The notes beneath the pieces were generated by a model. It saw nothing but the letters and a program-made list of their open reading frames with translations. It ran no database searches and was not told the origin of the DNA. DNA of 64,000 nt. Source: Lachnospiraceae bacterium (GTDB taxonomy: Bacteria > Bacillota > Clostridia > Lachnospirales > Lachnospiraceae). How positions within the stretch are numbered: the stretch's first letter is position 1; each line of letters begins with the position of its first letter. Where the stretch lies: positions 1 through 64,000 of the forward strand of contig JAILAD010000042.1 in assembly GCA_024681795.1 (NCBI GenBank). Reading direction: 5' to 3'. A program made the position numbers and the translations under genes. This document shows, one piece after another, positions 26,655-42,676 of the stretch.

Positions 26655-27401
26655 ATGATCTATTATTTTTCCGCAACCGGAAACTGCAGACATACGGCGA
26701 AACGGATTGCAGAGGCAATCGGTGACAGGGCCGTATCCTTAGAGGAAGCGGATTATAACTTAATACTGGAAAAAGACGAAGTGCTCGGTTTTGTAACTCC
26801 GACTTATTTTTGGGAGCTGCCCGGAATTGTAAGACATTTTATGTCGGATGCGGAGATTACCTTAAACGGGGACAATTATACGTTTCTGATTTCAACTTAC
26901 GGAACGACTCCTGGATGCAGTGCGGAAGAAGCAAGAAAGGTTCTGGCCGAAAACGGAATTTTACTGGATGCATCCTACAGCATTAAAATGCCGGATAACT
27001 GGACGGTCTGGTTTGATCTGAGCAATCCCGAAAAGGTGAGGATGCAGAACCGGAAAGCGGATGATGCCATCCGGAAAGTAATTGAAAGAATCAGAAAACG
27101 GGATCTCGGGAATCACCAGAAACCCCGCGCACCGTATTTTGTAAAAACGTTTACGGATTCCGCTTTTGAAAGTGCAAGAAAAACATCCAATCTTCATTTG
27201 GAGGATACCTGTATCGGATGCGGACTTTGTGCGAAAAACTGCCCTGTTTCCGCGATTGAGATGAAAGATTCAAGGCCTGTCTGGGTAAAAGAGCAGTGCG
27301 AACTCTGCTTCCGATGCCTTCATCACTGTCCGAAATTTGCCATACAGTACGGAAACGGTGCCACGAAAAAGCACGGACAGTATGTGCATCCGGAGACTTA
27401 A
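26655..27401 (+). CDS. EFR1-type flavodoxin/ferredoxin fusion protein
   Basis: A 248-residue electron-transfer protein. Residues about 1-150 form a flavodoxin-like domain with an FMN phosphate loop near the start (YYFSATGNCRHTAKRIAEA). Residues about 183-230 carry two [4Fe-4S] ferredoxin clusters, CIGCGLCAKNCP and CELCFRCLHHCP. This EFR1 family is common in anaerobic Firmicutes and is assumed to pass electrons between FMN and iron-sulfur partners. Whether it serves the radical SAM enzymes encoded 8 kb away cannot be told. The gene stands alone between convergent and divergent neighbours. Confidence 0.87.
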   Translation: MIYYFSATGNCRHTAKRIAEAIGDRAVSLEEADYNLILEKDEVLGFVTPTYFWELPGIVRHFMSDAEITLNGDNYTFLISTYGTTPGCSAEEARKVLAENGILLDASYSIKMPDNWTVWFDLSNPEKVRMQNRKADDAIRKVIERIRKRDLGNHQKPRAPYFVKTFTDSAFESARKTSNLHLEDTCIGCGLCAKNCPVSAIEMKDSRPVWVKEQCELCFRCLHHCPKFAIQYGNGATKKHGQYVHPET

Positions 27402-27469: not shown

Positions 27470-28695
27470 AAGTGATCTAAAAATTCCGGGAAGGACTTCT
27501 TCAGGCATTCCACATCATCTATTTCCACTTCCGTTTTTAAAATGACGGCAAGCAGAATCGCACACATTGCCATTCTGTGATCGTGGAAGGAAGAAAGCGG
27601 TATGGGCGTATTTTCGTTCCGTCCGGAATAATCATATTCATAAACCGTAAGGGAATCCTCGGTTTCCTCAGTTCTTACCCCGACGGCGGAAAGCTGTGTA
27701 CGTACGGCTTTTACGCGGTCGGATTCTTTTATCCGCAGTCTTGAAATTCCCGTAAAAGTTGCTTTTTTAAAACGGAACGGAGCCACGATTGCCATGTAAG
27801 GGGCGATGTCCGGAGTGTCCGTACAATCCCATGTTATTTCCGAAGAAGGTGCGGCTTCTTTTATCCGGTTTAAGTACTCCGAAATGGCCCGGTCTCCCTG
27901 GCGGGAATCAGGATTTAAATTGGTTACGGTTACGGAACTGAATTCGCCCAGGCAAAGGAGAAATGCGCCATTGCTCCAGTCGCCCTCCACTTTAAAGGGC
28001 TGATTCAGTTTTTCCTTTACGGAAGAAGTCCGGTAGCCGTTTGTTTTCGGATAATAGGTACCGTCGCGGTACTCTGCCGGGCAGCAGTATTTTGCAAGAA
28101 CATCCAGCGTCAGTTCGATATAGTGGACGGATTTACATTCGCCGGTGACACGGATGGTGCATGGTGTGTCAAAAAGCGGAAGAGCCATTAAAAGACCTGA
28201 AATATACTGGGAAGACACACTTCCGTCAATGGAAAAATCACCGCCGGAAAGAGTTCCCGTGACATGTATGGTGCGTGTTGCGTCATTTTTTGTAATTGTA
28301 ATTCCCATGGGAGAAAGCGCATCGGCAAGTTCCTTTACGGGACGGTCGAAAAGCCTTCCTTTTGTGGTAAATACCAGTTCTTCGACTCCGAAGGGACAGT
28401 CCCTGCGTAACAGAAATGCGGTTGCTACGGGAATCATGAACCGGATGGTGGAGCCGCTTTCGTTACAGGGAAGGACAATCTTTTTGGCAGAAGAACCGCC
28501 TGTCCCGGCCGCGGCATCACGAAGCGCGCGTAAGCACGCCCTGGTTGCCAGTATATCTTCGTTATCTGTTTCTTCATCCTCAAGGTGTTCCCTGTCACCG
28601 CAGAGAAAACGGATGATCAGCTCTCTGTGACCGATGGATTTGGAAGCGGGTGCTTCAATCGTAAAGTCAAATTTTTTGTTTCCGTTAACAATCAT
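27448..28695 (-). CDS. aroA: 3-phosphoshikimate 1-carboxyvinyltransferase (EPSP synthase)
   Basis: A 415-residue enzyme of the shikimate pathway that joins phosphoenolpyruvate to shikimate 3-phosphate. Family motifs are visible in order: APASKSIGHREL (phosphate-binding Lys/Ser), LPCNESGSTIRFMIPVA (PEP loop, a variant of the usual GNSGTT), SVSSQYISGLLMALPL, EGDWSNGAFLL, RIKESDRVKAV and FHDHRMAMC. The start at 28695 follows AGGGG by seven bases; in-frame upstream ATGs lack suitable sites. It stands alone, away from other aromatic biosynthesis genes. Confidence 0.92.
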   Translation of the reverse strand: MIVNGNKKFDFTIEAPASKSIGHRELIIRFLCGDREHLEDEETDNEDILATRACLRALRDAAAGTGGSSAKKIVLPCNESGSTIRFMIPVATAFLLRRDCPFGVEELVFTTKGRLFDRPVKELADALSPMGITITKNDATRTIHVTGTLSGGDFSIDGSVSSQYISGLLMALPLFDTPCTIRVTGECKSVHYIELTLDVLAKYCCPAEYRDGTYYPKTNGYRTSSVKEKLNQPFKVEGDWSNGAFLLCLGEFSSVTVTNLNPDSRQGDRAISEYLNRIKEAAPSSEITWDCTDTPDIAPYMAIVAPFRFKKATFTGISRLRIKESDRVKAVRTQLSAVGVRTEETEDSLTVYEYDYSGRNENTPIPLSSFHDHRMAMCAILLAVILKTEVEIDDVECLKKSFPEFLDHFLPAYFT

Positions 28696-28823
28696 TTCCA
28701 TTCCCCTGAAACCATGTCTTTTCAATTCCGATAAAAACGGGCATCAATTTGGGAAAATTATACGATTAAATGAAGAAAAATGCTATAATAAAATATTGAT
28801 TATAAGAAATTGAGGTTTGAGAA

Positions 28824-30287
28824 ATGAAAAGAATACTGAGTACGGAGAGAAAGGCGCTTTATTTGCGTGCACTGACACTGGCCGTACCGATGATGATACA
28901 GAACGGAATTACCAATGCAGTAGGACTTGTTGACAGTATAATGATCGGTTCGCAGGGTACGGAGAGTACATCTGCCGTTTCCATGTGCGGCCAGTTGATT
29001 TTTGTATTTAACCTGGCAATTTTCGGAGCCCTGTCCGGACCCGGGATTTTCGGAGCACAGTATTTCGGAAACAACGATATCGAAGGAGTCCGGAAGACGT
29101 TCCGAATTAAAATCTGGGTGGTAATTGCAAGTGTTATCGCCGGAATCTGTGCATTCTGGTTTTTCGGTGATTTCTTTGTCGGTTTGTATTTAAAGGGAGA
29201 AGCAGAGGGAATCGATCCGGTTCTGGCTTTGAATAAATCCAGGGATTATCTGCGAATCATGCTGATCGGCTTCCTGCCCTTTGCACTGACGCAGGTATAT
29301 TCCTCGACACTTCGTGAAAACAACGAAAGTAAAATACCGATGATTGCCGGAATTTGCGGAGTGGCGGCGGATATTCTGTTTAACTGGATTCTGATTTTCG
29401 GTAAATTCGGATTTCCTGCGATGGATGTAAAGGGTGCGGCAATCGCAACGGTGATTTCGAGATTTATCGAATTTACGGTAATTGTTATCTGGAGTCACCT
29501 GAAAAGAAAACGGTTTGTATTCTTGCAGGGAATCTACACAACCCTTCTGGTGGAGGGTAAAATTGCCGTTCCCATTATTAAGAAGAGCATCCCGATTCTG
29601 ATTAATGAATTTTTATGGTCTGCCGGGATCATTAAAACAAATCAGCTTTTATCCGAACGTTCCCTTTTTGTTGTTCCTTCGCTGGGAATATCGGCAGCAA
29701 TTTCGAACCTCTTAAACGTGGTTTTTGTTGCGATGGGAAGCGCTGTCGGAATCATTATCGGACAGATGCTGGGAGCAGGTGAAACAAAGGGAATCCGAAA
29801 GAAAGCAAATTCCCTGATGTGGTTTACCGCGTTTCTTTCCGTCGGTTTGTCGGGCGCACTGATTGCGATAGCCCCGTTCTTTCCGAAAAGGTACGATGTT
29901 CTGCCGGAAGTGCAGTATATGGCAACAGCATTTATTACCATGACCGCATTTTTCTTCCCTTTGCAGGGATTTTTGAATGCGCAGTATTTTACAATCCGTT
30001 CCGGAGGAAAGACATTTATTACGTTTCTTGCAGACAGTGGTTTTACCTGGGCAATCAATGTGCTTACGGTATTCCTGCTGATCAAATTTACGAATTTAAA
30101 CGTTTATCAGATTTATGCCGTTTCTCTGTCACTGGATATTCTGAAGGTGGTTTTCGGTGCGGTTATGATCCGGACGGGCGTCTGGATTACCAATCTGGTA
30201 AAAGAAGAAGGAAAAGAAGTTTCGGAGCTGAATCCGCATGTGGATGAGGCGGATGATGCAGATTCAAAAGCCTGGATAAAGGGATAA
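28824..30287 (+). CDS. MATE-family efflux transporter
   Basis: A 487-residue polytopic protein with twelve hydrophobic segments and MATE family features (AVPMMIQNGITNAVGLVDSI in helix 1, and a matching AVPIIKKSIPILINEFLWSA start of the second half). Such proteins export organic molecules using Na+ or H+ gradients. The C-terminal tail is acidic. It ends 36 bases before the acyl-adenylate ligase gene in the same direction and so may export the product of the following pathway; that is inference. Confidence 0.88.
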   Translation: MKRILSTERKALYLRALTLAVPMMIQNGITNAVGLVDSIMIGSQGTESTSAVSMCGQLIFVFNLAIFGALSGPGIFGAQYFGNNDIEGVRKTFRIKIWVVIASVIAGICAFWFFGDFFVGLYLKGEAEGIDPVLALNKSRDYLRIMLIGFLPFALTQVYSSTLRENNESKIPMIAGICGVAADILFNWILIFGKFGFPAMDVKGAAIATVISRFIEFTVIVIWSHLKRKRFVFLQGIYTTLLVEGKIAVPIIKKSIPILINEFLWSAGIIKTNQLLSERSLFVVPSLGISAAISNLLNVVFVAMGSAVGIIIGQMLGAGETKGIRKKANSLMWFTAFLSVGLSGALIAIAPFFPKRYDVLPEVQYMATAFITMTAFFFPLQGFLNAQYFTIRSGGKTFITFLADSGFTWAINVLTVFLLIKFTNLNVYQIYAVSLSLDILKVVFGAVMIRTGVWITNLVKEEGKEVSELNPHVDEADDADSKAWIKG

Positions 30288-30323
30288 AACAAGCCGGACT
30301 GAAATAACGGCGGGAGCAAAAGA

Positions 30324-31907
30324 ATGGATTATCCGTATCTTGATACGACAATATATGACGACTTCCGGGCAATGTTAAAAGGCCGTCTGGAATCAAATCC
30401 GGAGACGGTCGCGTTTCGTTTTTTTGAGAAGGATGAAACGGTTGACATTACCTATGCCGAAATGACGAGACAGGTTGCGTGTGTGTATGCGCATCTGAAA
30501 AAAGAAGGCCTGCTCGGAAAGCACATCGGAATTATTTCCGAAAACCGATACGAATATATTGTGATTTATCTGGCTGCGGTTCTGAACGCGGTGATAGTGC
30601 CGATGGATAAGGAAGCTGCGGCGGATACGATTTCGGATATGCTTGAGCGTTTCGATACGGACGCGGTTTTTGTTACGGATAAAACCTGCAATAAGACGGA
30701 AGGAGCGGTGCAGTCCAAACCCGTAAAGGTTTTTAATATAGACCGGGACTTCCCTGCAATCATAAAAGAGACGGTTTCCGTTCCGGATTTCTTTGAAGAA
30801 ACAAAGGACACCGACAAGGACCGCTTTGCGGTGCTGGCTTCCACGTCCGGGACGGACGGAAAAATGAAGGGTGTGATGTTATCGCAGTATAACGTCATTA
30901 CGAATATTCGCGGGACATTGGAAAATAACGTGCTGAAATCCCCCACGCTGGCCTTTCTTCCGATGAATCATACATACGGATTTAACCCCTGCATTCTTGC
31001 TACCCTTTATAACGGGACAACGCTATGTATAAACCTCGACATAAAGCATCTGTTCCGGGACATTAAAGCTTTTAATCCCTTCTTTTTCGGGGCCGTTCCG
31101 ATGGTAATCGAAGGGATGTATGACGGAATTTTCCGTGAGGTCAGAAAACGCGGAAAAGAAAAATCATTTAAGAGATTAATTCGGTTCAGCAATTTCCTTC
31201 GCCGGCACGGAATCGATTTAAGACATAAATTTTTCGGAAAAATACTTGCACCGAATCTTCGCCTTGTGGTGAACGGCGGGGCGCCTCTCCGCAAAGAATA
31301 CGTGGAGAAATTCGACGAACTCGGCATTATGATTCTGAACGGATACGGACTTACGGAATGTTCGCCGACAATAGCGGTCAGCCGTGAATTCAACAATGTT
31401 CCGGGAAGTGCCGGAACGATTATGAAAAATATCGAAGTGAAGATTGCGGATGACGGCGAAATTCTCGTAAAAGGACCGTGTGTAATGCTCGGCTACTATA
31501 AAGACAGGGAGGCCACAGAGAGCGTCTTCAGGGACGGATATTTTAAAACCGGGGACATCGGGCATACGGACGGAAGAGTTATTTTCGTCACCGGCAGAAA
31601 GAAGAATCTGATTATTACCGAAAACGGTAAAAACGTGGCACCGGAATATCTGGAAGATAAAATCCTGGCATTTGAAGAAGTTGCGGAATGTCTGGTGGTT
31701 GCAAAAAAAATCCGGAATACTTCCGTAATCTGCGCAAAAGTTTATCTGAAAGAAAACAACAGGGATTCGGAAATTCAGCTGCAGGAAGATCTGAAGGAAC
31801 TGAACGATACGCTTCCGTCTTATATGAGAATTACGGATTATGAGATTATGAGCGAAGAGTTTCAAAAGAACAGTTCGAAAAAAATAATTCGTAAAATGTA
31901 TACATAG
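30324..31907 (+). CDS. AMP-forming acyl-CoA/acyl-ACP ligase
   Basis: A 527-residue member of the ANL adenylating superfamily. Core motifs are LASTSGTDGKMKGVMLS (A3 phosphate loop; Asp replaces the usual Thr), LNGYGLTECSPTIA (A5), DGYFKTGDIG (A7), GRKKNLIITENGKNVAPEYL (A8) and a C-terminal SSKKIIRK carrying the probable A10 Lys. It would activate a carboxylic acid as acyl-AMP and pass it to a thiol. The acyl carrier protein gene 25 bases downstream makes loading onto that carrier the most likely role, as in FadD-like acyl-ACP ligases. The start has GGGAG upstream. The acid is unknown. Confidence 0.88.
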   Translation: MDYPYLDTTIYDDFRAMLKGRLESNPETVAFRFFEKDETVDITYAEMTRQVACVYAHLKKEGLLGKHIGIISENRYEYIVIYLAAVLNAVIVPMDKEAAADTISDMLERFDTDAVFVTDKTCNKTEGAVQSKPVKVFNIDRDFPAIIKETVSVPDFFEETKDTDKDRFAVLASTSGTDGKMKGVMLSQYNVITNIRGTLENNVLKSPTLAFLPMNHTYGFNPCILATLYNGTTLCINLDIKHLFRDIKAFNPFFFGAVPMVIEGMYDGIFREVRKRGKEKSFKRLIRFSNFLRRHGIDLRHKFFGKILAPNLRLVVNGGAPLRKEYVEKFDELGIMILNGYGLTECSPTIAVSREFNNVPGSAGTIMKNIEVKIADDGEILVKGPCVMLGYYKDREATESVFRDGYFKTGDIGHTDGRVIFVTGRKKNLIITENGKNVAPEYLEDKILAFEEVAECLVVAKKIRNTSVICAKVYLKENNRDSEIQLQEDLKELNDTLPSYMRITDYEIMSEEFQKNSSKKIIRKMYT

Positions 31908-31932
31908 AATCAAACGGATTAAGGGGAAAAAC

Positions 31933-32154
31933 ATGCTGGAGGAAGTAAAAAAAATACTGGCGGAGGAATACCGGATTACGGATGTTACACGCGATACCGA
32001 TTTTAAGAAGGAACTGGGATTAAATTCTTTTGATTTCATGAATCTGATTTGTATTGCGGAAGAGAAATTCAATGTGGAACTCGAGGAAGAGAAATACCGG
32101 AATATGAGTACCGTCGGGGAATTGTGCGATTATCTGGAATCGCTTGTAAAGTAG
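31933..32154 (+). CDS. Acyl carrier protein
   Basis: A 73-residue carrier protein. The phosphopantetheine attachment serine is S32 in GLNSFDFMNL, in the usual place, within an acidic four-helix layout. The usual DSL is replaced by NSF, which marks it as a specialised carrier rather than the housekeeping fatty acid ACP. The gene sits one base upstream of a GNAT gene and just after an adenylating ligase, so it probably carries the acyl group for this locus. Confidence 0.88.
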   Translation: MLEEVKKILAEEYRITDVTRDTDFKKELGLNSFDFMNLICIAEEKFNVELEEEKYRNMSTVGELCDYLESLVK

Positions 32155-32155
32155 T

Positions 32156-33247
32156 ATGCAGGTTGTTGAAGTAAAGGGGAAAAAAGAGCAGTCGGAATTT
32201 CTTGCGTTTCGCAAACGCAGGTATAAAAACGATGCGCTTTATATTGATAATAATTATTTTATGCTTCAGGAGATTTTTGCAAAGAAACTTCACTTTGTAA
32301 AAAGCGTGAATATTCATCCCGTGATGGTATGCGATGAATCCGGAGAGGTATTGTGTGAGGCGGTTATTGCCTATGCAAAAGATCTCCCGGAATACATCCA
32401 GATCTGTTTTTTCGAAAGCCTTCCGGGACAGTCGGAAGCAGTTCAATTAATTGTTTCCCGGGCGGAAGAGAAGGGAAAGTACTACAAGTGTAGTAAGATT
32501 GTAATCGGCCTTTTCGGGCACGTCAATTACGGACTCGGACTTTTGAATTCGCATTATGATTCCGTGAATTCTTTTTCTTCACAGGGGAATCCGAAATGCT
32601 ATAACGAATATTTTGAAAGCCTCGGATGCGAAACGGTTCTGCTGAATTCGTATTTTACACATAATTTAGAAGACAGGCTTTCACGGTACGGGGCATTAAT
32701 CCGCAAACTTCGCAGGAATTATGAATTTAAAACGTTTGATAAACATAAGTTTGAATATTATTCGAAGATTTATACGGACTTAAACAATGCCTGCTTTACC
32801 GAGCATAAATATTATTATCACCGGGAATATGAAGATGATATGGAAATGCTGAAGGAACTGTTTCTTTTTATGAAGGAGGATTCGCTTTTCTTTGCTTTTA
32901 AAGACGGCAAACCGGTCGGATTTATTCTCTGGTATCCGGATTATAACGAACTTGCAAAACCGGGTGAACTGTTCGGGACAAAGCATTTCTTTTTAAATAA
33001 ACTGAAGGGAAAAAACATCAGAACAGCAAAGGTTATGGAGTGGGGAGTTTTGGAGGAATACCGCGGATGCGGGCTTCCGGTTGCGTTAACGGACTGTGTG
33101 TATCAGACACTGAAAACAAACTACAGATGTAGTCAGGTTGAATCCTCATGGGTTCTGGATGAGAACGAGGATTCGAACAGTATCTGCATGGCAATCTGTG
33201 ACGGGAAATATAAGGAATATATTGTTTATGAAAAAGCAATCGGATGA
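32156..33247 (+). CDS. GNAT-fold acyltransferase-like protein A
   Basis: A 363-residue protein, probably cytoplasmic. The C-terminal part has a GNAT-like acyl donor-binding region, KVMEWGVLEEYRGCGLPVAL, where the usual R/Q-x-x-G-x-G/A pattern appears as R-G-C-G-L-P. Residues 1-150 form a second, GNAT-like half with YIDNNYFMLQEIF. Many Tyr and Phe residues in the middle suggest a hydrophobic substrate. It begins one base after the acyl carrier protein stop and overlaps the next transferase gene by 20 bases. It may move an acyl group from the carrier to an amine or hydroxyl acceptor. I do not recognise a characterised relative. Confidence 0.62.
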   Translation: MQVVEVKGKKEQSEFLAFRKRRYKNDALYIDNNYFMLQEIFAKKLHFVKSVNIHPVMVCDESGEVLCEAVIAYAKDLPEYIQICFFESLPGQSEAVQLIVSRAEEKGKYYKCSKIVIGLFGHVNYGLGLLNSHYDSVNSFSSQGNPKCYNEYFESLGCETVLLNSYFTHNLEDRLSRYGALIRKLRRNYEFKTFDKHKFEYYSKIYTDLNNACFTEHKYYYHREYEDDMEMLKELFLFMKEDSLFFAFKDGKPVGFILWYPDYNELAKPGELFGTKHFFLNKLKGKNIRTAKVMEWGVLEEYRGCGLPVALTDCVYQTLKTNYRCSQVESSWVLDENEDSNSICMAICDGKYKEYIVYEKAIG

Positions 33248-34253
33248 GAATTTTAAATCCCTGGTTACCGGGGATCCGGAGGAGATGTTTGAGTACCTGC
33301 AGACAACTCCTGTATCGGAGAGACTTACCAATCCGTTTACACCGGAAATGCTGAAACTGTTAAAGAAAAGCAACCCGTTCAGACAGACCTATTATTACAT
33401 CGAGGAAAACGGGAAATACGCTTTTTTCATTGTATATGACAGCAGGATGAATATTATGACGCTCGGTAAAAAAGAGTGGATGATGAACGTAAAGACCATC
33501 GGATTTCCGTGTTCTTTTTCCAACAGCGGATACATTACAAACGACCTGGAATTTCTGCTTACCTACTGCAGGAAATTAAAGGGCGGGAAATTAATCCTGA
33601 ATGTGGAGAATCCCGTGAAAATGAAGGGAATGGGATTCGGAGAAACGCTTCCGACCTGTGTGCTTTACTTAAAGCCGGAACATACCTCTTTGGAGAATTA
33701 CTTAAATTCCTTAAGAAGTCCGTACCGGAGAAGAATCCGTCTGGCTTTGAAAAGATGCAGCGATATTAAAACGGAGCATCGTGAATCGGCGCAGGAAGAT
33801 GCCGGTCTGTATGCACTTTATTTAAATACTTATAACAAATCGGAATACAAACTGGAATGTCTGACGGAAGAATTTTTTGAAAGATGTGAAGGCCACCGGA
33901 TTGTTTTTTACAAAGACGATAAACCGGTCGGATTCGTACTTCTTCATAAGGACAAAGAGAAACTGTCGTTTCTTTTCTGCGGAATGGAGTACGGTAAATT
34001 CGAACAGATTACGAATGCGGATTTGTATTTTTATATGCTGCTTCATATTGTGGAGTATGCAATTAACGAAGGCTGCAAAGTAATTGACTTCGGACAGACT
34101 TCGGAACTCACCAAGCTGAAATTCGGCGCGGAACCGGAAAAAAGATATTTTTATGCACAGCATACGAATCCGTTTTTAAATCTGTTTGCGATTCTGGGCA
34201 AAGGTCTTCTGGAATACAAATATGATTTCCCGGATTTCAAGGTGTTCCGGTGA
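33228..34253 (+). CDS. GNAT/FemAB-like acyltransferase B
   Basis: A 341-residue protein. I start at ATG 33228 (AAGGA upstream), which overlaps the previous gene by 20 bases; the frame is open earlier inside that gene. It has a basic segment LRSPYRRRIRLALKR and a C-terminal GNAT-like domain with VGFVLLHKDKEKLSFLFCGM and VIDFGQTSELTKLKFGAEP. The last pattern resembles the Acetyltransf_6 / FemAB-like group that joins acyl or aminoacyl groups. It forms a tight unit with the carrier protein and the first GNAT. Substrate and donor are unknown. Confidence 0.62.
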   Translation: MKKQSDENFKSLVTGDPEEMFEYLQTTPVSERLTNPFTPEMLKLLKKSNPFRQTYYYIEENGKYAFFIVYDSRMNIMTLGKKEWMMNVKTIGFPCSFSNSGYITNDLEFLLTYCRKLKGGKLILNVENPVKMKGMGFGETLPTCVLYLKPEHTSLENYLNSLRSPYRRRIRLALKRCSDIKTEHRESAQEDAGLYALYLNTYNKSEYKLECLTEEFFERCEGHRIVFYKDDKPVGFVLLHKDKEKLSFLFCGMEYGKFEQITNADLYFYMLLHIVEYAINEGCKVIDFGQTSELTKLKFGAEPEKRYFYAQHTNPFLNLFAILGKGLLEYKYDFPDFKVFR

Positions 34254-34341
34254 AGCGACTGTGAAATAAAAAGATTTCTCACATAAATTTCAGGAAGATT
34301 TCTTACGTAAATTAAGAAAAAGATACAGGGAACGGTAATCC

Positions 34342-35709
34342 ATGAACGTACTTCTTTTCAGACCACGTCCTCATAAAGAAACCATAGGTTTGCAGAATGT
34401 CATGATCTGCGAGCCGCTGGAACTTGAGTACATTGCGGCTAATATCGAGCCGCTCGGTCATACCTGCACAATTATCGACATGATCATCGAAAAAAAAGAT
34501 GTCGGCTATTTTGTAAAAAAATACAATCCGGATGTGGTCGGCATTACCGGGTATATTTCGCATGTCAATATCATGAAGGACTATGCAAGAAAAACAAAAG
34601 AAGTAAATCCCGCAATCAAAACAATTATCGGCGGCGTGCATGCCGAAGTGAATCCCGGTGATTTTGAAAGTGAATACGTGGACTATATCATACGTGCAAA
34701 CGGAATCAGAACGTTTATCGAAATTCTGAATTCCATTGAGGGAAAAGGCTCTCCGGCAGAGATAGAATGTGTTTATGCAAAAGACAAACCGGCTCCGAAA
34801 AAAGACACAACGTTTGATTATCGATTTCCGGCCAGGGAAAAAGTGGATGCGTACCGCTCGAAATATTATTACATGTTTCACCGTAACTGCAGTCTGATCA
34901 AGACTTCCTTCGGCTGTCCTTACAACTGCAAATTCTGTTTCTGCAGACAGATTATGGACGACCAGTATTTTGCAAGAAGTCTTGAGAATATTGCCGATGA
35001 ACTCGAGAAAGTAAAAGAGACGGAAATCTATATCGTGGATGATGATTTTCTTGTAGGAAGAAACCGGATTCTGGAATTCTGCGACATTTTGGAAAAGCGG
35101 AATATTCACAAAAAATATTTAATCTACGGCAGGGCGGATTTCATTGCCGCAAATGAAGACGTAATCAGGCGCTTCAAGGAAGTTGGCTTAAGGGCGGTTA
35201 TCGTCGGACTGGAAAGCTGCGACAGTAAACAGCTGGATGATTACAACAAACGAACGAATGTGGAAATAAATGAAAAAGCCGTCGGAATTCTGAAAAAATA
35301 CGACGTGGAATGTTACGGCACGTTTATCCTGGGACTCGACTGGACCTGGGCGGATTTCTCCGCGCTTCATAAATGGATCAAAAAACTCGGACTTGTATTC
35401 GTAAACCTGCAGCCGCTGACACCGCTTCGGGGAACGGATATTTACGAAAAATACAAACCCCGTTTTATCGTCCGTGAGGACGAATACGAAAAATGGGATC
35501 TGGCTCACCTGGTGGTGGAGCCGGAGCATATTTCCGTCAGGAAATATTACTGGTATACGATGGTACTCTACTATCTGATTACCGCAAATCCGGTCAGCTG
35601 GTGGTATATGGTAAAGAAATACGGACTTCACGATACCTTAAAGCTTACCGTCGGTGCAGGCAGGGTAAATACACAGTACTGGAAGAAACTGATTAAGGGC
35701 GAAGGCTGA
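34342..35709 (+). CDS. B12-binding-domain radical SAM protein 1
   Basis: A 455-residue enzyme. Residues about 1-135 form a Rossmann-like cobalamin-binding domain with CEPLELEYIAANIEPLG and IIGGVHAE, but without the DxHxxG lower-ligand motif. The radical SAM cluster motif is CPYNCKFC at residues 192-199. Later segments (IYIVDDDFLVGR, YLIYGRADFIAAN, VIVGLES) fit the SAM barrel. The C-terminus is rich in Tyr and Trp. Such class B enzymes methylate or rearrange unactivated carbons. This is the first of five consecutive genes of this type; an 88-base gap separates it from the GNAT gene. Confidence 0.85.
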   Translation: MNVLLFRPRPHKETIGLQNVMICEPLELEYIAANIEPLGHTCTIIDMIIEKKDVGYFVKKYNPDVVGITGYISHVNIMKDYARKTKEVNPAIKTIIGGVHAEVNPGDFESEYVDYIIRANGIRTFIEILNSIEGKGSPAEIECVYAKDKPAPKKDTTFDYRFPAREKVDAYRSKYYYMFHRNCSLIKTSFGCPYNCKFCFCRQIMDDQYFARSLENIADELEKVKETEIYIVDDDFLVGRNRILEFCDILEKRNIHKKYLIYGRADFIAANEDVIRRFKEVGLRAVIVGLESCDSKQLDDYNKRTNVEINEKAVGILKKYDVECYGTFILGLDWTWADFSALHKWIKKLGLVFVNLQPLTPLRGTDIYEKYKPRFIVREDEYEKWDLAHLVVEPEHISVRKYYWYTMVLYYLITANPVSWWYMVKKYGLHDTLKLTVGAGRVNTQYWKKLIKGEG

Positions 35710-35725
35710 TGAACGGAGAATTGAT

Positions 35726-37066
35726 TTGAAAGAGATTTATCAAAAGAAAAAACTGAAGGTTTTGTTAATCCGGCCGAAATACACTTCACTGGTTGCACAT
35801 CTGGAGCCGCTGGGGCTTGAGTACCTTGCCGGTCTTGCAAAAGAACTCGGAATCGAATGCGAAATTCATGATGAATTCGACCGTCCCTGGACGTTCCGTC
35901 TTGAGAGAATGTGCAATATCATCAGAAAGGGCGGCTATAATTTTGTCGGTCTGAATGCGAACGCGAATACCGTTGACTATATCATTAAGCGCGCAAAACA
36001 GCTGAAAAAACGTTTTCCGGATTTAACGATTATGGTAGGCGGACCGGAAGCGGAAATGAATTATCCGGAGTTTCTGACGGATGATATCGATCTGGTTTAT
36101 TACGATAACGGTTTGAAAACCCTGAAGGCAATCTGGGAGGCAGGACTGGATGTCAATGTCATGGACGAACAGACCGGAATTGCCTTTCGAAAAAACGGGG
36201 AATGGGTTGTGAAGGAAAAAGGCCCGTCTGTTGACGGATTTATCAATAAACCCGACCGGACCGCATTTTACAGGGGATTAAAAAAGAACTACATCTTCAT
36301 GAAAGGAAAGTATGCACTTTCCAAGGCATCTTTCTCATGCCCCTTTTCCTGTTCGTTCTGTTACTGTACCAAGATGAACTCGGGCCGTTATACGGAACGT
36401 AATCTTGAGGAGGTGCTGAATGATATCGAGGAGATCAAACACGATAAAATATGGTTTGTGGATGATACGTTTTTCTATCACAAGGAACGCGTCATTCAGT
36501 TCTGTGAGGAAGTAATCAGGCGCGGAATCAAGAAGGAATTCATGGCATATGCCAGAGCGGATTTCATCGCCGCAAATCCGGATATTCTGCCGCTTGCCTA
36601 CAAAGCGGGATTCCGGGATATCTTAATCGGCCTGGAAGCCATCACCGATGAACAGCTGGATGATTATAATAAGCAGACTTCCCGCGATGACAACATTAAT
36701 GCAATTAAAAATCTGCATGACAACAACATCGTGTGCAACGGACTTTTCGTAATCAATTATACGGCAACCAGAAAAGATTTTCACAATCTGATGAAATTTA
36801 TCAAGGACAATAATCTGCTGTGGGTGGTATTCGGAATCTTTACTCCGTATAAGGGAACGGATGCCTATGACGAGTATAAGGATCAGGTAATCGGTTTTAA
36901 ATCCTGGCGGCTTGACGGAACGCATATTACAATTAAGCCTACGAATATGTCTTCTTTTGAATACATGCTCCGGTACTACTGGATTCATGTTTTAACATAT
37001 CCGAAGATTATGGTCAGAACGCTCTTCGGAACCGGATACGACACAAAACGGAAGGGCTGGTTTTAA
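35726..37066 (+). CDS. B12-binding-domain radical SAM protein 2
   Basis: A 446-residue paralogue of its neighbours, with an N-terminal cobalamin-binding-like domain (HLEPLGLEYLAGLAKELG; MVGGPEAE) and the cluster motif CPFSCSFC at 205-212. FVDDTFFYHKER and FMAYARADFIAAN are shared with the other members. The start is TTG at 35726, seven bases after GGAG; no ATG start is available near it. It lies 16 bases after the first paralogue. A His lower ligand for cobalamin is not seen, so B12 binding is inferred from the domain fold. Confidence 0.85.
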   Translation: MKEIYQKKKLKVLLIRPKYTSLVAHLEPLGLEYLAGLAKELGIECEIHDEFDRPWTFRLERMCNIIRKGGYNFVGLNANANTVDYIIKRAKQLKKRFPDLTIMVGGPEAEMNYPEFLTDDIDLVYYDNGLKTLKAIWEAGLDVNVMDEQTGIAFRKNGEWVVKEKGPSVDGFINKPDRTAFYRGLKKNYIFMKGKYALSKASFSCPFSCSFCYCTKMNSGRYTERNLEEVLNDIEEIKHDKIWFVDDTFFYHKERVIQFCEEVIRRGIKKEFMAYARADFIAANPDILPLAYKAGFRDILIGLEAITDEQLDDYNKQTSRDDNINAIKNLHDNNIVCNGLFVINYTATRKDFHNLMKFIKDNNLLWVVFGIFTPYKGTDAYDEYKDQVIGFKSWRLDGTHITIKPTNMSSFEYMLRYYWIHVLTYPKIMVRTLFGTGYDTKRKGWF

Positions 37067-37080
37067 ATGAGGAATGCGAT

Positions 37081-38403
37081 ATGAAACAGAAATACATGTT
37101 TGTGCGTGTGGATTACGATAAGAGAGTTGCGAGTCTTGAACCGCTCGGTCTTGAATACCTGGTTGCATGCGTGAAAGCGGAAAACAGAGAAGGCTTTATT
37201 TATGATGAAAGCATCGTCAGCCGCTTCGGAAGAAAAGCGAGGCTTTTGCGCATGGTGGACGAAAACCACGTAACCATCGCAGGCTTCAGCATAATGTCCC
37301 ATACGGCATGGTACGATCTGGAATTAATCCGTTTCTTAAAAAAGAAACGACCGGACGTAAAAATCATGGTAGGCGGGCCTGAGGTCGTAATCAATCATGA
37401 GGACTTCCTTCTGGAGGAAGTGGATTATGTGTCTTATGACAATGGTCTGGATTCCTTCCGGCTTGCAATCCGAAACGATTTCGACGTGGAAACGCTGAAA
37501 AACTGCAGCGGCTTTTCCTTCCGGGTAAACGGAGAATGGGTGCAGAATCTGAAAGGAGAACCCATTTCCGATTACGGGATTTTACCGGACCGGAGCCATT
37601 TTTACGAAAACAGAAGCAAATTCAAAGTGCTTGCAAAAGGCTGTTTTTCCATGATGAAAACATCTTTTTCCTGCCCGCAGAACTGCAAATTCTGTATTTC
37701 GCGTCAGTTTAACAGCTGTGCTTACCGGGAACGTGATATAGACGCGGTAATCGATGAAATCATTCATCTCGATAATGATAAGATTTTTATCATCGATGAT
37801 GACTTCCTGGTAAACAAAGAGCGTGTGAAATATTTCTGCGAACGGCTTCTGGAATTAAACCAGCATAAGACGATTATGATCTTTTCCCGTGCGGACAGTA
37901 TTGTCAGGTGTGAAGACATTATGCCGTTAATATACAAGGCGGGCATTCGCGACATGCTTGTGGGCCTGGAAGCGGTTGAGGATACGACGCTCGAGAAATA
38001 CAACAAGAATTCCAGCGTAACCGTCAATAAAAAAGCGGTAAAGATTCTGCGCGATTTTAACATGGTCTGCGTCGGTCTGTTTGTAATCAACTATGATTTC
38101 AAACACAAAGATTTTATGAACATCAATAAGTTTATCCGCGACGAAAAACTGATCTGGGTATTGTTCTCGATTCTGATTCCGTTTAAGGGCACACCCGTAT
38201 ATGAAGAAAACAAGGATAAACTCTATCGTTATAAATACAGCAGAACCGGCGGAACCAGCGTTTTAATGCGTCCGAGTCATATGCCGATGTTGCTTTTCAA
38301 ACTGGAATTTCATTTTCTTTACTATGTCAATTACCCGCGCATTTACTGGGCCGGGATAACACATTTGTTTAACAAAAGGTATCGTAATAATTCGGAGACT
38401 TAA
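37081..38403 (+). CDS. B12-binding-domain radical SAM protein 3
   Basis: A 440-residue paralogue. The N-terminal domain has SLEPLGLEYLVACVKAE and MVGGPEVV, and the radical SAM cluster motif is CPQNCKFC at 198-205. The segment FIIDDDFLVNKERVKYF matches the second paralogue. The usual YGRADFIAAN is changed to FSRADSIVRC, so this copy differs in the substrate barrel. It starts 14 bases after the preceding gene, with GAGGA before the ATG. The substrate is unknown. Confidence 0.85.
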   Translation: MKQKYMFVRVDYDKRVASLEPLGLEYLVACVKAENREGFIYDESIVSRFGRKARLLRMVDENHVTIAGFSIMSHTAWYDLELIRFLKKKRPDVKIMVGGPEVVINHEDFLLEEVDYVSYDNGLDSFRLAIRNDFDVETLKNCSGFSFRVNGEWVQNLKGEPISDYGILPDRSHFYENRSKFKVLAKGCFSMMKTSFSCPQNCKFCISRQFNSCAYRERDIDAVIDEIIHLDNDKIFIIDDDFLVNKERVKYFCERLLELNQHKTIMIFSRADSIVRCEDIMPLIYKAGIRDMLVGLEAVEDTTLEKYNKNSSVTVNKKAVKILRDFNMVCVGLFVINYDFKHKDFMNINKFIRDEKLIWVLFSILIPFKGTPVYEENKDKLYRYKYSRTGGTSVLMRPSHMPMLLFKLEFHFLYYVNYPRIYWAGITHLFNKRYRNNSET

Positions 38404-38408
38404 TCGGC

Positions 38409-39794
38409 GTGAATATACTTCTCATAAAACCGGAAACAGTGGGAATATTCAGTTATACCTATCTTGTGGAGCACGAGCCTTTGGAGATGGAATATCTCTA
38501 CACCGTGTTTACCGCAATGGGTCATCACGCCGTAATTTACGACCGCAGATACGAGCTGACTTCCATGAAGAAGAAAATCAGGGAAGAAAATCCAGACGTA
38601 ATCTGCGTGACAGGATACATTACACAGCAAAAACTTGTATACCGTTACTGTGAGGTAATTAAGGCATACAGACCGGAGATCAAAATCATTCTCGGCGGTT
38701 CTAACGTGGAAATCAATTACGAAAATTATTTTGATTCCAAAGCAGATTATCTCTATCATTTAAGCGGTCTTGAGAATCAGAAAAAACTGATCCGGTATAT
38801 CGAGCAGGAAAAGAAACGGACAGATGCAGCTGAATCAGAGGAACTGAAACTGGAAGACATTCCGGGAATCTGTTACCGGAAGAACGGGGAGTGGAAAGTA
38901 AATCCGAAGGTTGTGGAAACACCGGCGGATTTGCCGATACCGGACAGGACGTATTTTTATAAAAATAAAAAACGCTTCCGGTATCTTTGTTTCAAACCGC
39001 TGGCACTGGTAAAGAATTCTTACAGCTGCAGGAAAAAATGTAATTTCTGTTTCTGTACGAACCGAAACAGCGGAAGGTATGCATGCAGAAGCGTGGAGAG
39101 TCTGGTGGACGAAATTGCGTCCCTTGACGTTCCCGCAATTCATATTACAGACGATGATTTCTTAATTGACGAAGCGTATTTAAAAGAGTTCATTCGCCTG
39201 ATCCGGGAGAAGGATATCCATAAGGAATACCTGATTTACGGGCGTGCGGATTTCATTGCACATCACGAGGAACTGATGAAGGAACTTGCCGATATCGGTC
39301 TGAAACTGATCATGGTAGGACTTGAGGCGACAAGTGAAGAGGAACTGGATTCCTATAATAAAAAAGTGACGGTTTCCGAAAATGAAGAATGCATCCGGAT
39401 TCTTTCCGAGAACGATATTTTCTGCGCGGGACTGTTTATCGTTCATCCCGGAATGACGAAGGAAGACTTTAAAAAACTGTATGACTGGATTGCGGCAAGG
39501 GATATCATTCCGACCGTCTCGGTATTTACACCGATGCAGGGTTCTGCCATGTATAAAAAATATGAAAGTCAGATGATTGACCGGGATGTTACGAAACAGG
39601 ATTTATTCCATTGCCTTCTGAAACCGGAGCATATGAGCGTAAGACAGTTTACGCGTGAGTATTATAAATTGTCGATGGGACTGGCATTTAAAAACCGGAA
39701 ATCTAAACTGTATTCCAAAAATAATTATTTCGGCGCGATGCTGTATGTTATAAAGGTTATTTTTGTGAAACTGAAGCGGGCGATTGCATTATGA
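38409..39794 (+). CDS. B12-binding-domain radical SAM protein 4
   Basis: A 461-residue paralogue. The start is GTG at 38409, five bases after the previous stop. The N-terminal domain has EHEPLEMEYLYTVF and ILGGSNVE. An acidic insertion (TDAAESEELKLED) follows at about residues 138-150. The cluster motif CRKKCNFC is at 207-214, and HITDDDFLIDEAYLKEF and YLIYGRADFIAHH show the family relation. Its stop overlaps the start of the fifth gene by four bases (ATGA), so both are coupled in translation. Confidence 0.85.
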   Translation: MNILLIKPETVGIFSYTYLVEHEPLEMEYLYTVFTAMGHHAVIYDRRYELTSMKKKIREENPDVICVTGYITQQKLVYRYCEVIKAYRPEIKIILGGSNVEINYENYFDSKADYLYHLSGLENQKKLIRYIEQEKKRTDAAESEELKLEDIPGICYRKNGEWKVNPKVVETPADLPIPDRTYFYKNKKRFRYLCFKPLALVKNSYSCRKKCNFCFCTNRNSGRYACRSVESLVDEIASLDVPAIHITDDDFLIDEAYLKEFIRLIREKDIHKEYLIYGRADFIAHHEELMKELADIGLKLIMVGLEATSEEELDSYNKKVTVSENEECIRILSENDIFCAGLFIVHPGMTKEDFKKLYDWIAARDIIPTVSVFTPMQGSAMYKKYESQMIDRDVTKQDLFHCLLKPEHMSVRQFTREYYKLSMGLAFKNRKSKLYSKNNYFGAMLYVIKVIFVKLKRAIAL

Positions 39795-41110
39795 AAAATA
39801 AGATTCTGCTGATTCAACCAACTCCATATGACCAGTACGGAAACCTTGTAAAAAAGCACAGGCTTTATTTTGTCGGGCTTGCGCTTCCGCTCCTTGCCGC
39901 ACTTACACCGGATGATTTTGAAGTGGAAATCTGTTATGAAACCATTGAGGATGTTCCCTTTGATACCGATGCGGAACTGATCGGAATCTCCAGCATGGGA
40001 CATGCCGTAATGCGTACGATTGACATTGCAAATAAATTCAGGGAACTCGGAAAGACGGTAGTTCTCGGCGGCTATATGGTTTCGCTTATGCCGGAAGAAG
40101 CACAGAAATACTGCGATGCCGTAATGATCGGTGATTCCGAGGAAACCTGGGGAGAGATGATTGAGGATTACCGGAACGGAACGTTAAAGAAAGTCTATAA
40201 AAAGAAACTTGAAAAACTTGTCACTCCGCTTCCGAAATATGAACTGATTCTGAATAAGAAAATCGGAAATTTTCTACCTGTCCAGGCAGGACGGGGATGC
40301 CCGAAAACCTGCAGTTTCTGTTCGATTTACTGCCTGTATCACGGGCAGTATTTAAGGAGGGAAATTCCGGATGTGATCCGTGACATCAAGCGTGTGAAGG
40401 AACTTGGTTTTAAGCAGTTTCTTCTTCTTGATGACAATCTTTTTTCCAACCGTGATTATGCAATGGCGCTTTGCGCGGAAATAAAGAAACTCAAAATGAA
40501 ATGGATGACGCAGTGTTCCATTGACATTTCACAGGATGAAGAATTATTAAAAGTTGTTTCGGAGGCAGGATGCTATGTTTTAAGTTTCGGTCTTGAAAGC
40601 ATCAGCCGGGAAAGTCTGGTCGGCATGCAGAAAGCCTGGGCGCATCCGGACCGGTATTCCGAGCAGCTGAAAATCATCAGAAAATACGGAATCGATGTTT
40701 CGACCGAAATGGTGGTCGGCGCGGAGGGTGATACGCTGGAATCCATTCGGGAAACCGCAAAATTTATTGAAGACAACAAAATTACAGTGCCGAGATTCTA
40801 TATTCTGACACCGATTCCCGGGACGCAGTATTATGACGAAATGAAGGAACAGAACCGGATCTACAATACCGACATGTATTCTTACAATTCATGTGAAGCG
40901 GTTCATATTCCGAAAAACATGACACCGGAGGAACTGACAAAAGCATACTGGGATTTGTATAATGAAGTCTATTCCTACAGGAGTATTTTCCGGCGCACGA
41001 TTTTTGTAAAAAATTTCTGGAGAAGACCGTTTACTTCGTTCTTCTATCTGGGGGTGAATTTATTTTACAGAAAACATATTAAACACGGTATCGTACCGAA
41101 TATTGTTTAA
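39791..41110 (+). CDS. B12-binding-domain radical SAM protein 5, divergent
   Basis: A 439-residue protein with the same two-domain plan but clearly further from the other four. The cobalamin-binding-like domain has LALPLLAALTPDDFEVEICY and VVLGGYMVSLMPEEAQ; the cluster motif is CPKTCSFC at 170-177. The shared RADFIAAN segment is replaced by TQCSIDISQDEELLK, and GAEGDTLESI resembles the BchE/HpnP-like group. The distance suggests a different reaction on the same pathway. The gene ends in a triple 14-base repeat that covers its stop codon. Confidence 0.84.
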   Translation: MKNKILLIQPTPYDQYGNLVKKHRLYFVGLALPLLAALTPDDFEVEICYETIEDVPFDTDAELIGISSMGHAVMRTIDIANKFRELGKTVVLGGYMVSLMPEEAQKYCDAVMIGDSEETWGEMIEDYRNGTLKKVYKKKLEKLVTPLPKYELILNKKIGNFLPVQAGRGCPKTCSFCSIYCLYHGQYLRREIPDVIRDIKRVKELGFKQFLLLDDNLFSNRDYAMALCAEIKKLKMKWMTQCSIDISQDEELLKVVSEAGCYVLSFGLESISRESLVGMQKAWAHPDRYSEQLKIIRKYGIDVSTEMVVGAEGDTLESIRETAKFIEDNKITVPRFYILTPIPGTQYYDEMKEQNRIYNTDMYSYNSCEAVHIPKNMTPEELTKAYWDLYNEVYSYRSIFRRTIFVKNFWRRPFTSFFYLGVNLFYRKHIKHGIVPNIV

Positions 41111-41148
41111 AGGATTACATTTAAGGGATTAAGTTTAAAGGATTATAT
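41107..41148 (+). repeat. Three tandem 14-base repeats
   Basis: TTAA(A/G)GGATTA(C/A/T)(A)(T) units at 41107-41120, 41121-41134 and 41135-41148. The first overlaps the TAA stop of radical SAM gene 5, and the array ends 18 bases before the next ATG. Confidence 0.6.
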
Positions 41149-41166
41149 TGACAAGAGAAGTGTAAA

Positions 41167-41511
41167 ATGAGCGACGAAAACAAAAACATGAATCAGAATG
41201 AGAATACTTCCGCTGAAGAATCGTCTTTATACGGCGAGTGGAAGACGGTAGGAAAAGGACTCGGAAAGACATTCTCCGGGCTCGGAAAAACGTTAATCAA
41301 AACCGCAAAAATCGGAATTGAGAAGGCAGATGACTGGGCAGAGGACAGAGAAAGGGTTGACCGTTCCGCCGAGGTGGAAGATATGAAGGCAGGATGGAAG
41401 ACATTCGGCGGTGATTTTGTCGACTCTGCACAGGATGTCGGCAAGACCACGGTAAAAAGCGTGAAGGCCGGTGCACAGGCCGTAAGCAGCGATGACGGAA
41501 AACAGGAATGA
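41167..41511 (+). CDS. Small charged hypothetical protein
   Basis: A 114-residue protein with an Asn/Glu-rich start and amphipathic segments containing GKGLGKTFSGLGKTLIKTA and SAQDVGKTTVKSVKAGAQA, a Gly/Lys-spaced pattern seen in surface-associated helices and phasin-like or YtxH-like proteins. There is no signal peptide or membrane helix. Its stop overlaps the next start (ATGA), so the two proteins are probably made in matched amounts and may interact. No function can be given. Confidence 0.65.
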   Translation: MSDENKNMNQNENTSAEESSLYGEWKTVGKGLGKTFSGLGKTLIKTAKIGIEKADDWAEDRERVDRSAEVEDMKAGWKTFGGDFVDSAQDVGKTTVKSVKAGAQAVSSDDGKQE

Positions 41512-42251
41512 TTGACGGGGAATTATTCGGACGTGCAAAAGAGCAGATGCTTTGGAAACGGCAGGGAGAGCGCGGGATCGGAACACTTTCCGAAAAAAGT
41601 GTCCACTCCGTGCTGAAATATTATTATGCGCCCGACGAAAAATATCATGAAGTTAAAATCGGAACGTATTTTGCAGATGCGTGTGTGGAAGGTGATATAT
41701 ACGAAATCCAGACCAGAGATTTTTATAAACTGAATGAGAAACTGGAGGAATTCATTAACACGTTCGGAATGGACGTGACGATTGTGTATCCGGTTCCCGT
41801 CGAGAATACATTAATCTGGATAGATCCCGATACCGGAGAAGTGAAAAAAAGCAGAACCGTTAAAGCGCCGAAAAAGATTTATAAAGTGTTTCGTGAACTT
41901 TACGGGATTCGGGATTTTCTTGGGAATCCGAAACTTCATCTTTGCATTGCCTGTTTAAAGACCGAAGATTACAGACTTCTTGACGGATACGGAAAAGACC
42001 GGAAGAAGAGGGCAACCAAAACGGACAGGGTTCCGGTTGAATTCAAAGAAGAATTTTACTTTGACGGTGTAAAGGATGCGCTCATACTTTTCCCGGAAAG
42101 TCTCCCGGATGAATTTACGGCAGCTGATTTCAGGAAAGCAACGGGACTGGGTGCGAACGATGCATCGGTCGGGCTGCTTTTATTTTACAGACTCGGAGTA
42201 TTATGTCGCAGAAAAGAAGGAAGAAGTTTTGTTTATCGGAAAGAAAACTGA
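41508..42251 (+). CDS. Hypothetical protein with possible PD-(D/E)XK nuclease-like fold
   Basis: A 247-residue cytoplasmic protein of unknown function. The order of an N-terminal Glu helix (GTLSEKSVHSVLKYYY), then YFADACVEGDIYEIQTRDFY with an Asp and an E-x-Q, resembles the E...D...ExK/Q arrangement of PD-(D/E)XK nucleases. The C-terminal 60 residues (LPDEFTAADFRKATGL, SVGLLLFYRLGVLCRRKEG) look like a winged helix. These assignments come from pattern only. The gene is coupled to the small protein upstream by an ATGA overlap. Confidence 0.6.
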   Translation: MIDGELFGRAKEQMLWKRQGERGIGTLSEKSVHSVLKYYYAPDEKYHEVKIGTYFADACVEGDIYEIQTRDFYKLNEKLEEFINTFGMDVTIVYPVPVENTLIWIDPDTGEVKKSRTVKAPKKIYKVFRELYGIRDFLGNPKLHLCIACLKTEDYRLLDGYGKDRKKRATKTDRVPVEFKEEFYFDGVKDALILFPESLPDEFTAADFRKATGLGANDASVGLLLFYRLGVLCRRKEGRSFVYRKEN

Positions 42252-42271
42252 CTTTGAAAGAGGAATTAATT

Positions 42272-42676
42272 ATGAAAAAAAGAATTTTTGTGATTACACT
42301 TGCAGGCATTCTGATGGTGATTTTACTCTGCGGATGCGGAATCAAGAGAGATGAACTCGGCAATGCCCTGATTACGTCAGATTGGAAACTTGTCAGTTTG
42401 AGGACAAACGGAACGTTTACGGATGTTGAAAATGAACAGCCTTTGGTAAAACTGATTACGGCACGGGATAACCCGAAATTTAAATGCAAAGACGGTACGC
42501 ACTGTACCTTCAGCATGGCCGGAAAGACACATAACGGAACCATTTCCGGACAGGACGGGAACTATGAAATCACGTATGACGATACCTCGAAACCGATGTT
42601 GGCGGAAATTTCGGGGGACAGACTTACATTAAAGGATACTAACGGAAAATTTGAAATAGTGTTCAATGCAAAATAG
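42272..42676 (+). CDS. Small hypothetical lipoprotein
   Basis: A 134-residue predicted lipoprotein. The start at ATG 42272 follows GAGGAATT; the frame upstream lies in the previous gene. The lipobox LCGC puts the lipidated Cys at residue 22. The mature part (TSDWKLVSLRTNGTFTDVEN, YEITYDDTSKPMLAEISGD) reads like a small beta-rich domain resembling lipocalin-like or DUF-type lipoproteins common in Clostridia. It is followed 19 bases later by the serine hydrolase gene. No function can be given. Confidence 0.7.
   Translation: MKKRIFVITLAGILMVILLCGCGIKRDELGNALITSDWKLVSLRTNGTFTDVENEQPLVKLITARDNPKFKCKDGTHCTFSMAGKTHNGTISGQDGNYEITYDDTSKPMLAEISGDRLTLKDTNGKFEIVFNAK

Follow-up and report, generated by a model that had tools for sequence, protein, structure and literature searches.

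What is made by a run of genes in which an acyl ligase, an acyl carrier protein (ACP) and two GNAT-fold proteins stand next to five radical S-adenosylmethionine (SAM) proteins? The run lies at 28824..41110 of a 64,000-nucleotide stretch from Lachnospiraceae bacterium (GenBank assembly GCA_024681795.1, contig JAILAD010000042.1, positions 1 to 64,000), hereafter the window. The original prediction, made from the letters of the window, was that ten collinear genes encode an undescribed pathway in which a carrier-bound acyl chain is reworked by radical steps, moved to an acceptor and exported. Ten open reading frames (ORFs) on the + strand, their contents and the gaps between them (36, 25, 1, -20, 88, 16, 14, 5 and -4 bases) were all confirmed from the ORFs and Pfam; for the gap figures the start of GN2 was taken at 33228, the listed ORF opening earlier, at a TTG at 33138. 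Comparison with related loci showed that the run is a real unit whose boundaries differ from those of the ten genes: its core consists of GN1, GN2, R1 and R5. The ten genes were as follows:

28824..30287, + strand: MATE-family transporter (MatE, 116 bits), probably a lineage-specific neighbour or late addition and not core
30324..31907, + strand: LIG, AMP-forming acyl ligase of the acyl-coenzyme A (CoA)/acyl-ACP synthetase type (AMP-binding, 194 bits)
31933..32154, + strand: ACP, acyl carrier protein, probably dedicated to the cassette (PP-binding, 41 bits against a cut-off of 20.8)
32156..33247, + strand: GN1, tandem-GNAT protein of the ceramide-synthase (CerS/YghO) family, predicted N-acyltransferase (Acetyltransf_1)
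33228..34253, + strand: GN2, FemX-like GNAT protein, predicted aminoacyl (or acyl) transferase (Acetyltransf_6)
34342..35709, + strand: R1, core radical SAM protein with a B12-binding-type N-terminus, HpnR/BchE-like (B12-binding 63.4 bits, Radical_SAM 62.0 bits)
35726..37066, + strand: R2, radical SAM paralogue, mostly of Lachnospiraceae-type loci (Pfam, locus comparison, tree)
37081..38403, + strand: R3, radical SAM paralogue of Lachnospiraceae-type loci (Pfam, locus comparison, tree)
38409..39794, + strand: R4, radical SAM paralogue grouped with proteins of six other Bacillota loci (Pfam, locus comparison, tree)
39791..41110, + strand: R5, core radical SAM protein on a separate branch (Radical_SAM 61.7 bits, B12-binding 32.0 bits)

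Related loci were collected by searching named genomes with R1: 133 stretches matched, 116 of them encode a relative, and the best 80 loci were kept. The ORFs of these 80 loci were then searched for counterparts of each of the ten window proteins. A locus was called complete when more than 2,500 bases preceded the first and more than 1,500 bases followed the last matched + strand gene. This left 50 complete loci (23 Lachnospiraceae-type, 23 other Bacillota and 4 Bacteroidota); the other 30, which lie too close to an end of their contig or of the fetched sequence, were excluded from the counts over complete loci. Groups were named from record titles and R1 identity, and two loci of the Lachnospiraceae type (L016 and L025) bear Ruminococcus or Oscillospiraceae titles. 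In four Bacteroidota loci (L078, L080, L082 and L084) the GN1 role falls to a relative closer to CerS/YghO, encoded at the opposite end of the cassette, and this protein was counted as GN1.

All four core genes were found together in 48 of the 50 complete loci, which argues for an association beyond chance. GN1, R1 and R5 were present in every complete Lachnospiraceae-type locus (23/23) and GN2 in 21/23; the whole core was present in 23/23 complete loci of other Bacillota and in 4/4 of Bacteroidota, and the one Cloacimonadota locus (L085), which is cut at its left end, also holds all core genes. GN1 adjoins GN2 in 64 of the 71 loci that hold both. The expectation that ligase, carrier, GNAT and radical SAM genes would stay together in related genomes was borne out across phyla for the GNAT and radical SAM genes; ligase and carrier were not retained everywhere.

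LIG and ACP were present in 19/23 complete Lachnospiraceae-type loci (missing in L027, L029, L031 and L036), and the pair was found in 0/27 complete loci outside this type, where the sole ligase match was a domain of a polyketide synthase (PKS) protein in L083. Ligase and carrier are a Lachnospiraceae-type addition and not part of the core. The order LIG-ACP-GN1 was consecutive in 28 of the 29 loci with both ligase and carrier (the exception being L030), which makes it plausible that the acyl donor of this lineage is carrier-bound, as in the proposed loading of an acyl chain by ligase and carrier. When LIG was compared with solved structures, many acyl-CoA-ligase-type chains were matched, none of them close. 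The proposal that a MATE exporter belongs to the pathway was not sustained: an orthologue (82%) was found in only one of the 80 loci (L008, cut at its 3' end) and in 0/50 complete loci. The transporter was rejected as a core part on these counts, and is probably not needed for the pathway. Other MATE genes, 23-25% identical and on the opposite strand, occur in L027, L029, L030 and L061. At L083:13088-21407, in an Alkaliphilus metagenome-assembled genome, two same-strand genes come after the cassette, one for an AMP-ligase/carrier/ketosynthase protein and one for a condensation-domain protein of the nonribosomal peptide synthetase (NRPS) type; this lipopeptide-like PKS/NRPS neighbour was seen at this locus only.

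The cassette is rare and patchy, yet spread over phyla. In a phylum sample of 398 genomes, 47 matched R5 at E 1e-80 and eight (own genome included) at E<1e-200, the next match being at 3.3e-104. The second-tier matches were examined as candidate cassettes and rejected, as 22 fetched loci (L108 to L129) held no other core gene within flanks of about 1.5 kb. GN1 had matches in 11 of the 299 genomes of a family sample, with at least 54% identity in three (own included). Within the genus of the window, R5 was found in 16/31 genomes (own included), and in 0/30 further relatives; several of the genomes lacking R5 are incomplete, yet 6/15 of those in the genus are 91-100% complete. Among the carriers are named species for which strain records exist, for example Geosporobacter ferrireducens, Alkaliphilus transvaalensis and Sedimentibacter hydroxybenzoicus. 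Interrupted copies of R5 were seen in a few relatives (L032:15411-16751, G309:C31:7817-9079 and G737:C5:22787-24100), which may indicate that some carriers are losing the pathway, or may be assembly errors.

A CerS/YghO-type profile was built from two E. coli YghO sequences and four Bacteroidota proteins; Caulobacter CC_1154 itself is absent from this set, which is tied to it through the available text of PMC9386255. The GN1 profile matched this profile at E 2.9e-40 over 361 columns, a full-length homology. Judged by this comparison, GN1 is a member of the CerS/YghO family, and its N-acyltransferase activity is predicted. Its tandem-GNAT fold resembles a clavulanic-acid-pathway protein and sugar or thiol acetyltransferases. 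Directly 5' of GN1, a gene like those of pyridoxal phosphate-dependent decarboxylases was found at L081:5893-7098, L085:2-1084 and L086:2806-3951 (Bacteroidota/Cloacimonadota; one sequence cluster). The protein of L081 is LysA-like. A decarboxylase of this kind could provide the amine acylated by GN1.

The predicted fold of GN2 was closest to FemX and to aminoacyl-transfer RNA (tRNA)-dependent peptide synthases (Sba18 and Sbb17), at 12-15% identity; some of the top fold matches are peptide synthases whose structures were solved with streptothrisamine. Against the CerS-type set, the profile probability of GN2 was 10%. FemAB-type cell-wall families were matched weakly (TIGR03019, 16.8 bits; PF04339, 22 bits), both below cut-off. 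On the modelled fold GN2 is probably an aminoacyl transferase; it differs from FemX, Sba18 and Sbb17 by the low identity given above and by its genomic partners, which are radical SAM proteins and an N-acyltransferase. The prediction that the GNAT proteins move an acyl chain to an acceptor can be sharpened on this basis, to a CerS/YghO-family N-acyltransferase (GN1) and a protein of FemX-like predicted fold (GN2). No solved relative of GN1 or GN2 was detected by sequence at E up to 10. A paralogous relationship between GN1 and GN2 was considered and is unsupported (profile comparison probability 4%).

R1-R5 each contain one CxxxCxxC motif and the Pfam Radical_SAM domain, and the motif cysteines were invariant in the R5 and R1 alignments (15 rows each). 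The B12-binding domain PF02310 was matched by R1 (63.4 bits), R2 (39.5 bits), R3 (43.4 bits) and R4 (46.5 bits), all over the cut-off of 32.1. R1-R4 are paralogues of 30-40% mutual identity (R2 and R3, 40%), R5 is 20-27% identical to them in local alignments, and R5 orthologues are 44-96% identical. A tree of 185 radical SAM sequences from 48 of the 80 loci and the window (rows of 400 to 699 residues, quick mode) gathered R5 and the corresponding proteins of all groups into a single clade, and likewise R1 and its counterparts across Bacillota, Bacteroidota and Cloacimonadota. R2 (a clade of 17 rows) was sister to R3, both of Lachnospiraceae-type loci. The Lachnospiraceae type has three to five radical SAM genes per complete locus (five in 14/23), the other Bacillota have three or four, and the Bacteroidota have two.

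The curated models nearest to this set were HpnR, BchE, PhpK and HpnJ, joined in the case of R5 by ApyD and the ladderane type, with all scores far under the cut-offs. The two best models of R1-R4 were HpnR and the Mg-protoporphyrin ester cyclase BchE (99-182 and 111-131 bits, against cut-offs of 650 and 481; R1 reached 182 bits with HpnR), so that R1-R4 belong to different subfamilies from these; those of R5 were PhpK, BchE, HpnJ, ApyD and the ladderane type. Across R1-R5 the scores were 71-182 bits for HpnR (TIGR04367, cut-off 650) and 94-131 bits for BchE (TIGR02026, cut-off 481); R5 scored 79.7 bits with the ladderane-type model TIGR04072, the highest of the set and below the cut-off of 360. 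Among the model rows listed, no NCBIfam cut-off was reached by LIG, ACP, the GNAT proteins or the radical SAM proteins, and the MATE protein exceeded that of a generic MATE subfamily model. When R1 and R5 were compared with solved structures, singly or as profiles, only distant radical SAM chains were found (AprD4, CysS, TokK, OxsB and MiaB/RimO types). One contig of the genome encodes CobS together with a permease of the FecCD type, so that use of cobalamin is plausible.

A class I methyltransferase of one family was encoded in 32/32 loci of other Bacillota and in 7/41 Lachnospiraceae-type loci (L035, L036, L037 and L039 to L042). R3 was present in 28/41 Lachnospiraceae-type loci and in 0/7 of those with the class I methyltransferase (some loci being cut); where present, the methyltransferase may do the job of R3. 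A second R5-like radical SAM gene (32-34%) was observed at L078:1-2731, near an MMPL-type transporter, and at L086:9284-10795, in two pieces. Genes belonging to three sequence clusters were found between the radical SAM genes and R5 at L042:7305-9432 and L035:14116-16210; the first gene of the L042 insert encodes an ABC-type ATPase and the third a protein with an iron-sulphur domain.

We put at about even the chance that the product of the cassette is an acyl compound with an amide link, probably a lipid that is secreted or placed in the membrane, and that its unactivated carbons would be reworked by the predicted cobalamin-dependent radical SAM enzymes. LIG would charge ACP with a fatty acid, by analogy with AasR acting on AcpR in Caulobacter, and GN1, as its family suggests, would pass the acyl group to a primary amine to give an amide, in the manner of CerS. 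GN2 would add an aminoacyl group, perhaps taken from an aminoacyl-tRNA as its FemX-like fold would allow. R1 and its copies R2 to R4, going by the class of enzyme, would add methyl groups or join carbons at successive positions, and R5 would catalyse a distinct, perhaps ring-forming, step; the sequence is compatible with radical rework of the chain while it is on the carrier as well as once the amide exists. R5 may form rings or rearrange its substrate, because it stands on a separate branch and non-methylating relatives do so: the available text of a preprint (PMC13142503) describes B12-type radical SAM proteins that form rings or carry out a rearrangement instead of methylating, of which it counts few known members. 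The product would be tuned in each lineage by the number of radical SAM copies, or by a class I methyltransferase in place of R3.

Several observations weigh against this amide-lipid reading, or limit parts of it. R1-R5 are cobalamin-type radical SAM proteins by prediction, B12 binding itself being no more than predicted, and the PF02310 score of R5 (32.0 bits) is just under the cut-off; no Rfam match to a cobalamin riboswitch was found in the whole window at the gathering score, nor up to E 1 in 28000-42300. The identity of GN1 to the CerS set is only about 20%, and its amine may therefore differ widely; the FemX-like fold of GN2 does not by itself establish the use of tRNA. As ligase and carrier are missing outside the Lachnospiraceae-type loci, carrier loading is not universal. 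LIG itself scored 198 bits with its best NCBIfam model, a long-chain-fatty-acid--CoA ligase, below the cut-off of 476, and only part of it aligns with the ligase of the E. coli ceramide cluster, at 23% identity. The core is not invariant either, GN2 being absent from L031 and L044 among the 23 complete Lachnospiraceae-type loci. Distances between core proteins were correlated in the 23 other Bacillota loci (r 0.69 to 0.87 for six pairs, each with 0/2000 permutations as high), which indicates a joint history of the proteins; calculated with no housekeeping-gene control, this may reflect common descent alone. The original prediction took the close spacing as a sign of one operon. Counted on both strands, promoter-like sites numbered 31, about as many as in shuffled sequence (26.8), and terminator-like sites numbered 22, more than after shuffling (12.2), so a single transcript is not demonstrated.

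Other products were weighed against the amide-linked lipid on the same evidence. A small, diffusible, aminoacylated product of the antibiotic kind, for which LIG would activate a non-fatty acid, the GNAT proteins would acylate and aminoacylate a polar scaffold and the MATE protein would export the result, is unlikely. In its favour are the peptide synthases solved with streptothrisamine among the fold matches of GN2, the likeness of the GN1 fold to a clavulanic-acid-pathway protein and to sugar or thiol acetyltransferases, the MATE gene adjoining the cassette here, the patchy presence in 16/31 genomes of the genus, as would fit an accessory metabolite, and the PKS/NRPS pair beside one Alkaliphilus cassette. 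Against it, the sequence homology of GN1 is to CerS, in a long-chain N-acyltransferase family, and the MATE gene is not conserved. We consider it improbable that the two enzyme classes act on different molecules, the radical SAM proteins methylating or cyclising an envelope lipid or polyprenoid in the style of hopanoid methylases and the GNAT proteins modifying an amine of the cell wall or a polysaccharide. Such a division would suit the best curated model of R1, the hopanoid C-3 methylase HpnR (182 bits), and the sub-cut-off matches of GN2 to the FemAB-type families TIGR03019 and PF04339, but a shared product would account better for the core genes standing together in 48/50 complete loci, drawn from two phyla, and in one cut locus from a third phylum.

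Known lipid systems offer further comparisons. Diabolic acid, a membrane-spanning lipid of Bacillota and Thermotogae, is made by radical SAM chemistry on acyl chains in anaerobes. We know of no GNAT core in diabolic acid synthesis, a system compared by description and not by sequence. According to the available text of PMC2649909, anammox ladderane clusters combine an ACP and a CoA-ligase-type gene with several radical SAM proteins, of which one has a B12-binding domain. That radical SAM proteins here cyclise or join carrier-bound fatty acids into a comparable membrane lipid, with the GNAT proteins as auxiliaries, is quite improbable, despite the match of R5 to the ladderane-type B12 radical SAM model and the rings and rearrangements described for non-methylating B12-type enzymes (PMC13142503, preprint, in its available text). 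R5 falls far below the 360-bit cut-off; the available text of PMC2649909 gives the anammox clusters fatty acid synthase genes, FabF paralogues and phytoene-desaturase-like genes, whereas none of these, nor FabZ, is among the ten genes; and the conserved GNAT core points to an amide, which argues against a plain ladderane- or diabolic-acid-like ester lipid. The ceramide module AasR-AcpR-(Spt)-CerS (Caulobacter CC_1165/1163/1162/1154; E. coli yghO cluster) has, likewise, an acyl ligase, an ACP gene and a GNAT-family N-acyltransferase, and a sphingolipid (ceramide) pathway in anaerobes, in which GN1 served as the ceramide synthase, would account for the homology of GN1 to CerS and for the ligase-carrier pair before GN1. 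Such a pathway may hold in Bacteroidota and Cloacimonadota, where 7/7 cassette genomes matched E. coli serine palmitoyltransferase (three at 39-40% identity) with proteins that may be this enzyme or a related synthase; 7/8 genomes of other Bacillota matched too (31-37%), at a level indistinguishable from related synthases. In the window's genome (93% complete) it was rejected, as no serine palmitoyltransferase match was obtained at E 1e-3; none was obtained in the genomes of L012, L018 and L046 either, with a query that matched 14/17 genomes. The ten genes include no spt or epimerase gene, and unlike the ceramide module they add a FemX-like GNAT protein and five B12-type radical SAM proteins. 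As an account of the cassette, a ceramide pathway is highly improbable.

The prediction that no characterised pathway has this content stood: none of the known pathways compared matches it, and no description of the gene set was found in the literature searched, whose coverage leaves out most subscription journals. The parts are of known enzyme kinds, and their combination is new among the pathways compared.

Two neighbouring features of the window were recorded. Three small ORFs (114, 247 and 157 amino acids) lie 3' of R5 on the same strand at 41167-42676, the first beginning 56 bases past R5, with no Pfam match. Upstream, at 26655-27401 on the + strand, a flavodoxin-like plus ferredoxin-like protein is encoded, a possible electron donor for the radical SAM enzymes; an EPSP-synthase gene (- strand) sits between this gene and the cassette.

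Because the cassette is patchy in the genus and is carried by named species that have strain records, its product could be found by comparing lipids between strains, with no need to begin from a mutant of an uncultured rumen bacterium. The amide-lipid reading can be carried further, tentatively and with the balance leaning against it, to an undescribed class of anaerobic amide lipids common to Bacillota, Bacteroidota and Cloacimonadota, which would be sphingolipid-like and made without serine palmitoyltransferase or oxygen, by a CerS relative linking a carrier-bound fatty chain with an amine, a FemX-like enzyme adding an amino acid, and a core pair of vitamin-B12 radical SAM proteins with up to three copies that cut, join or methylate unactivated carbons. 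If true, one short pathway would unite a ceramide-synthase relative with several cobalamin-type radical SAM enzymes, an addition to the known biosynthetic routes.

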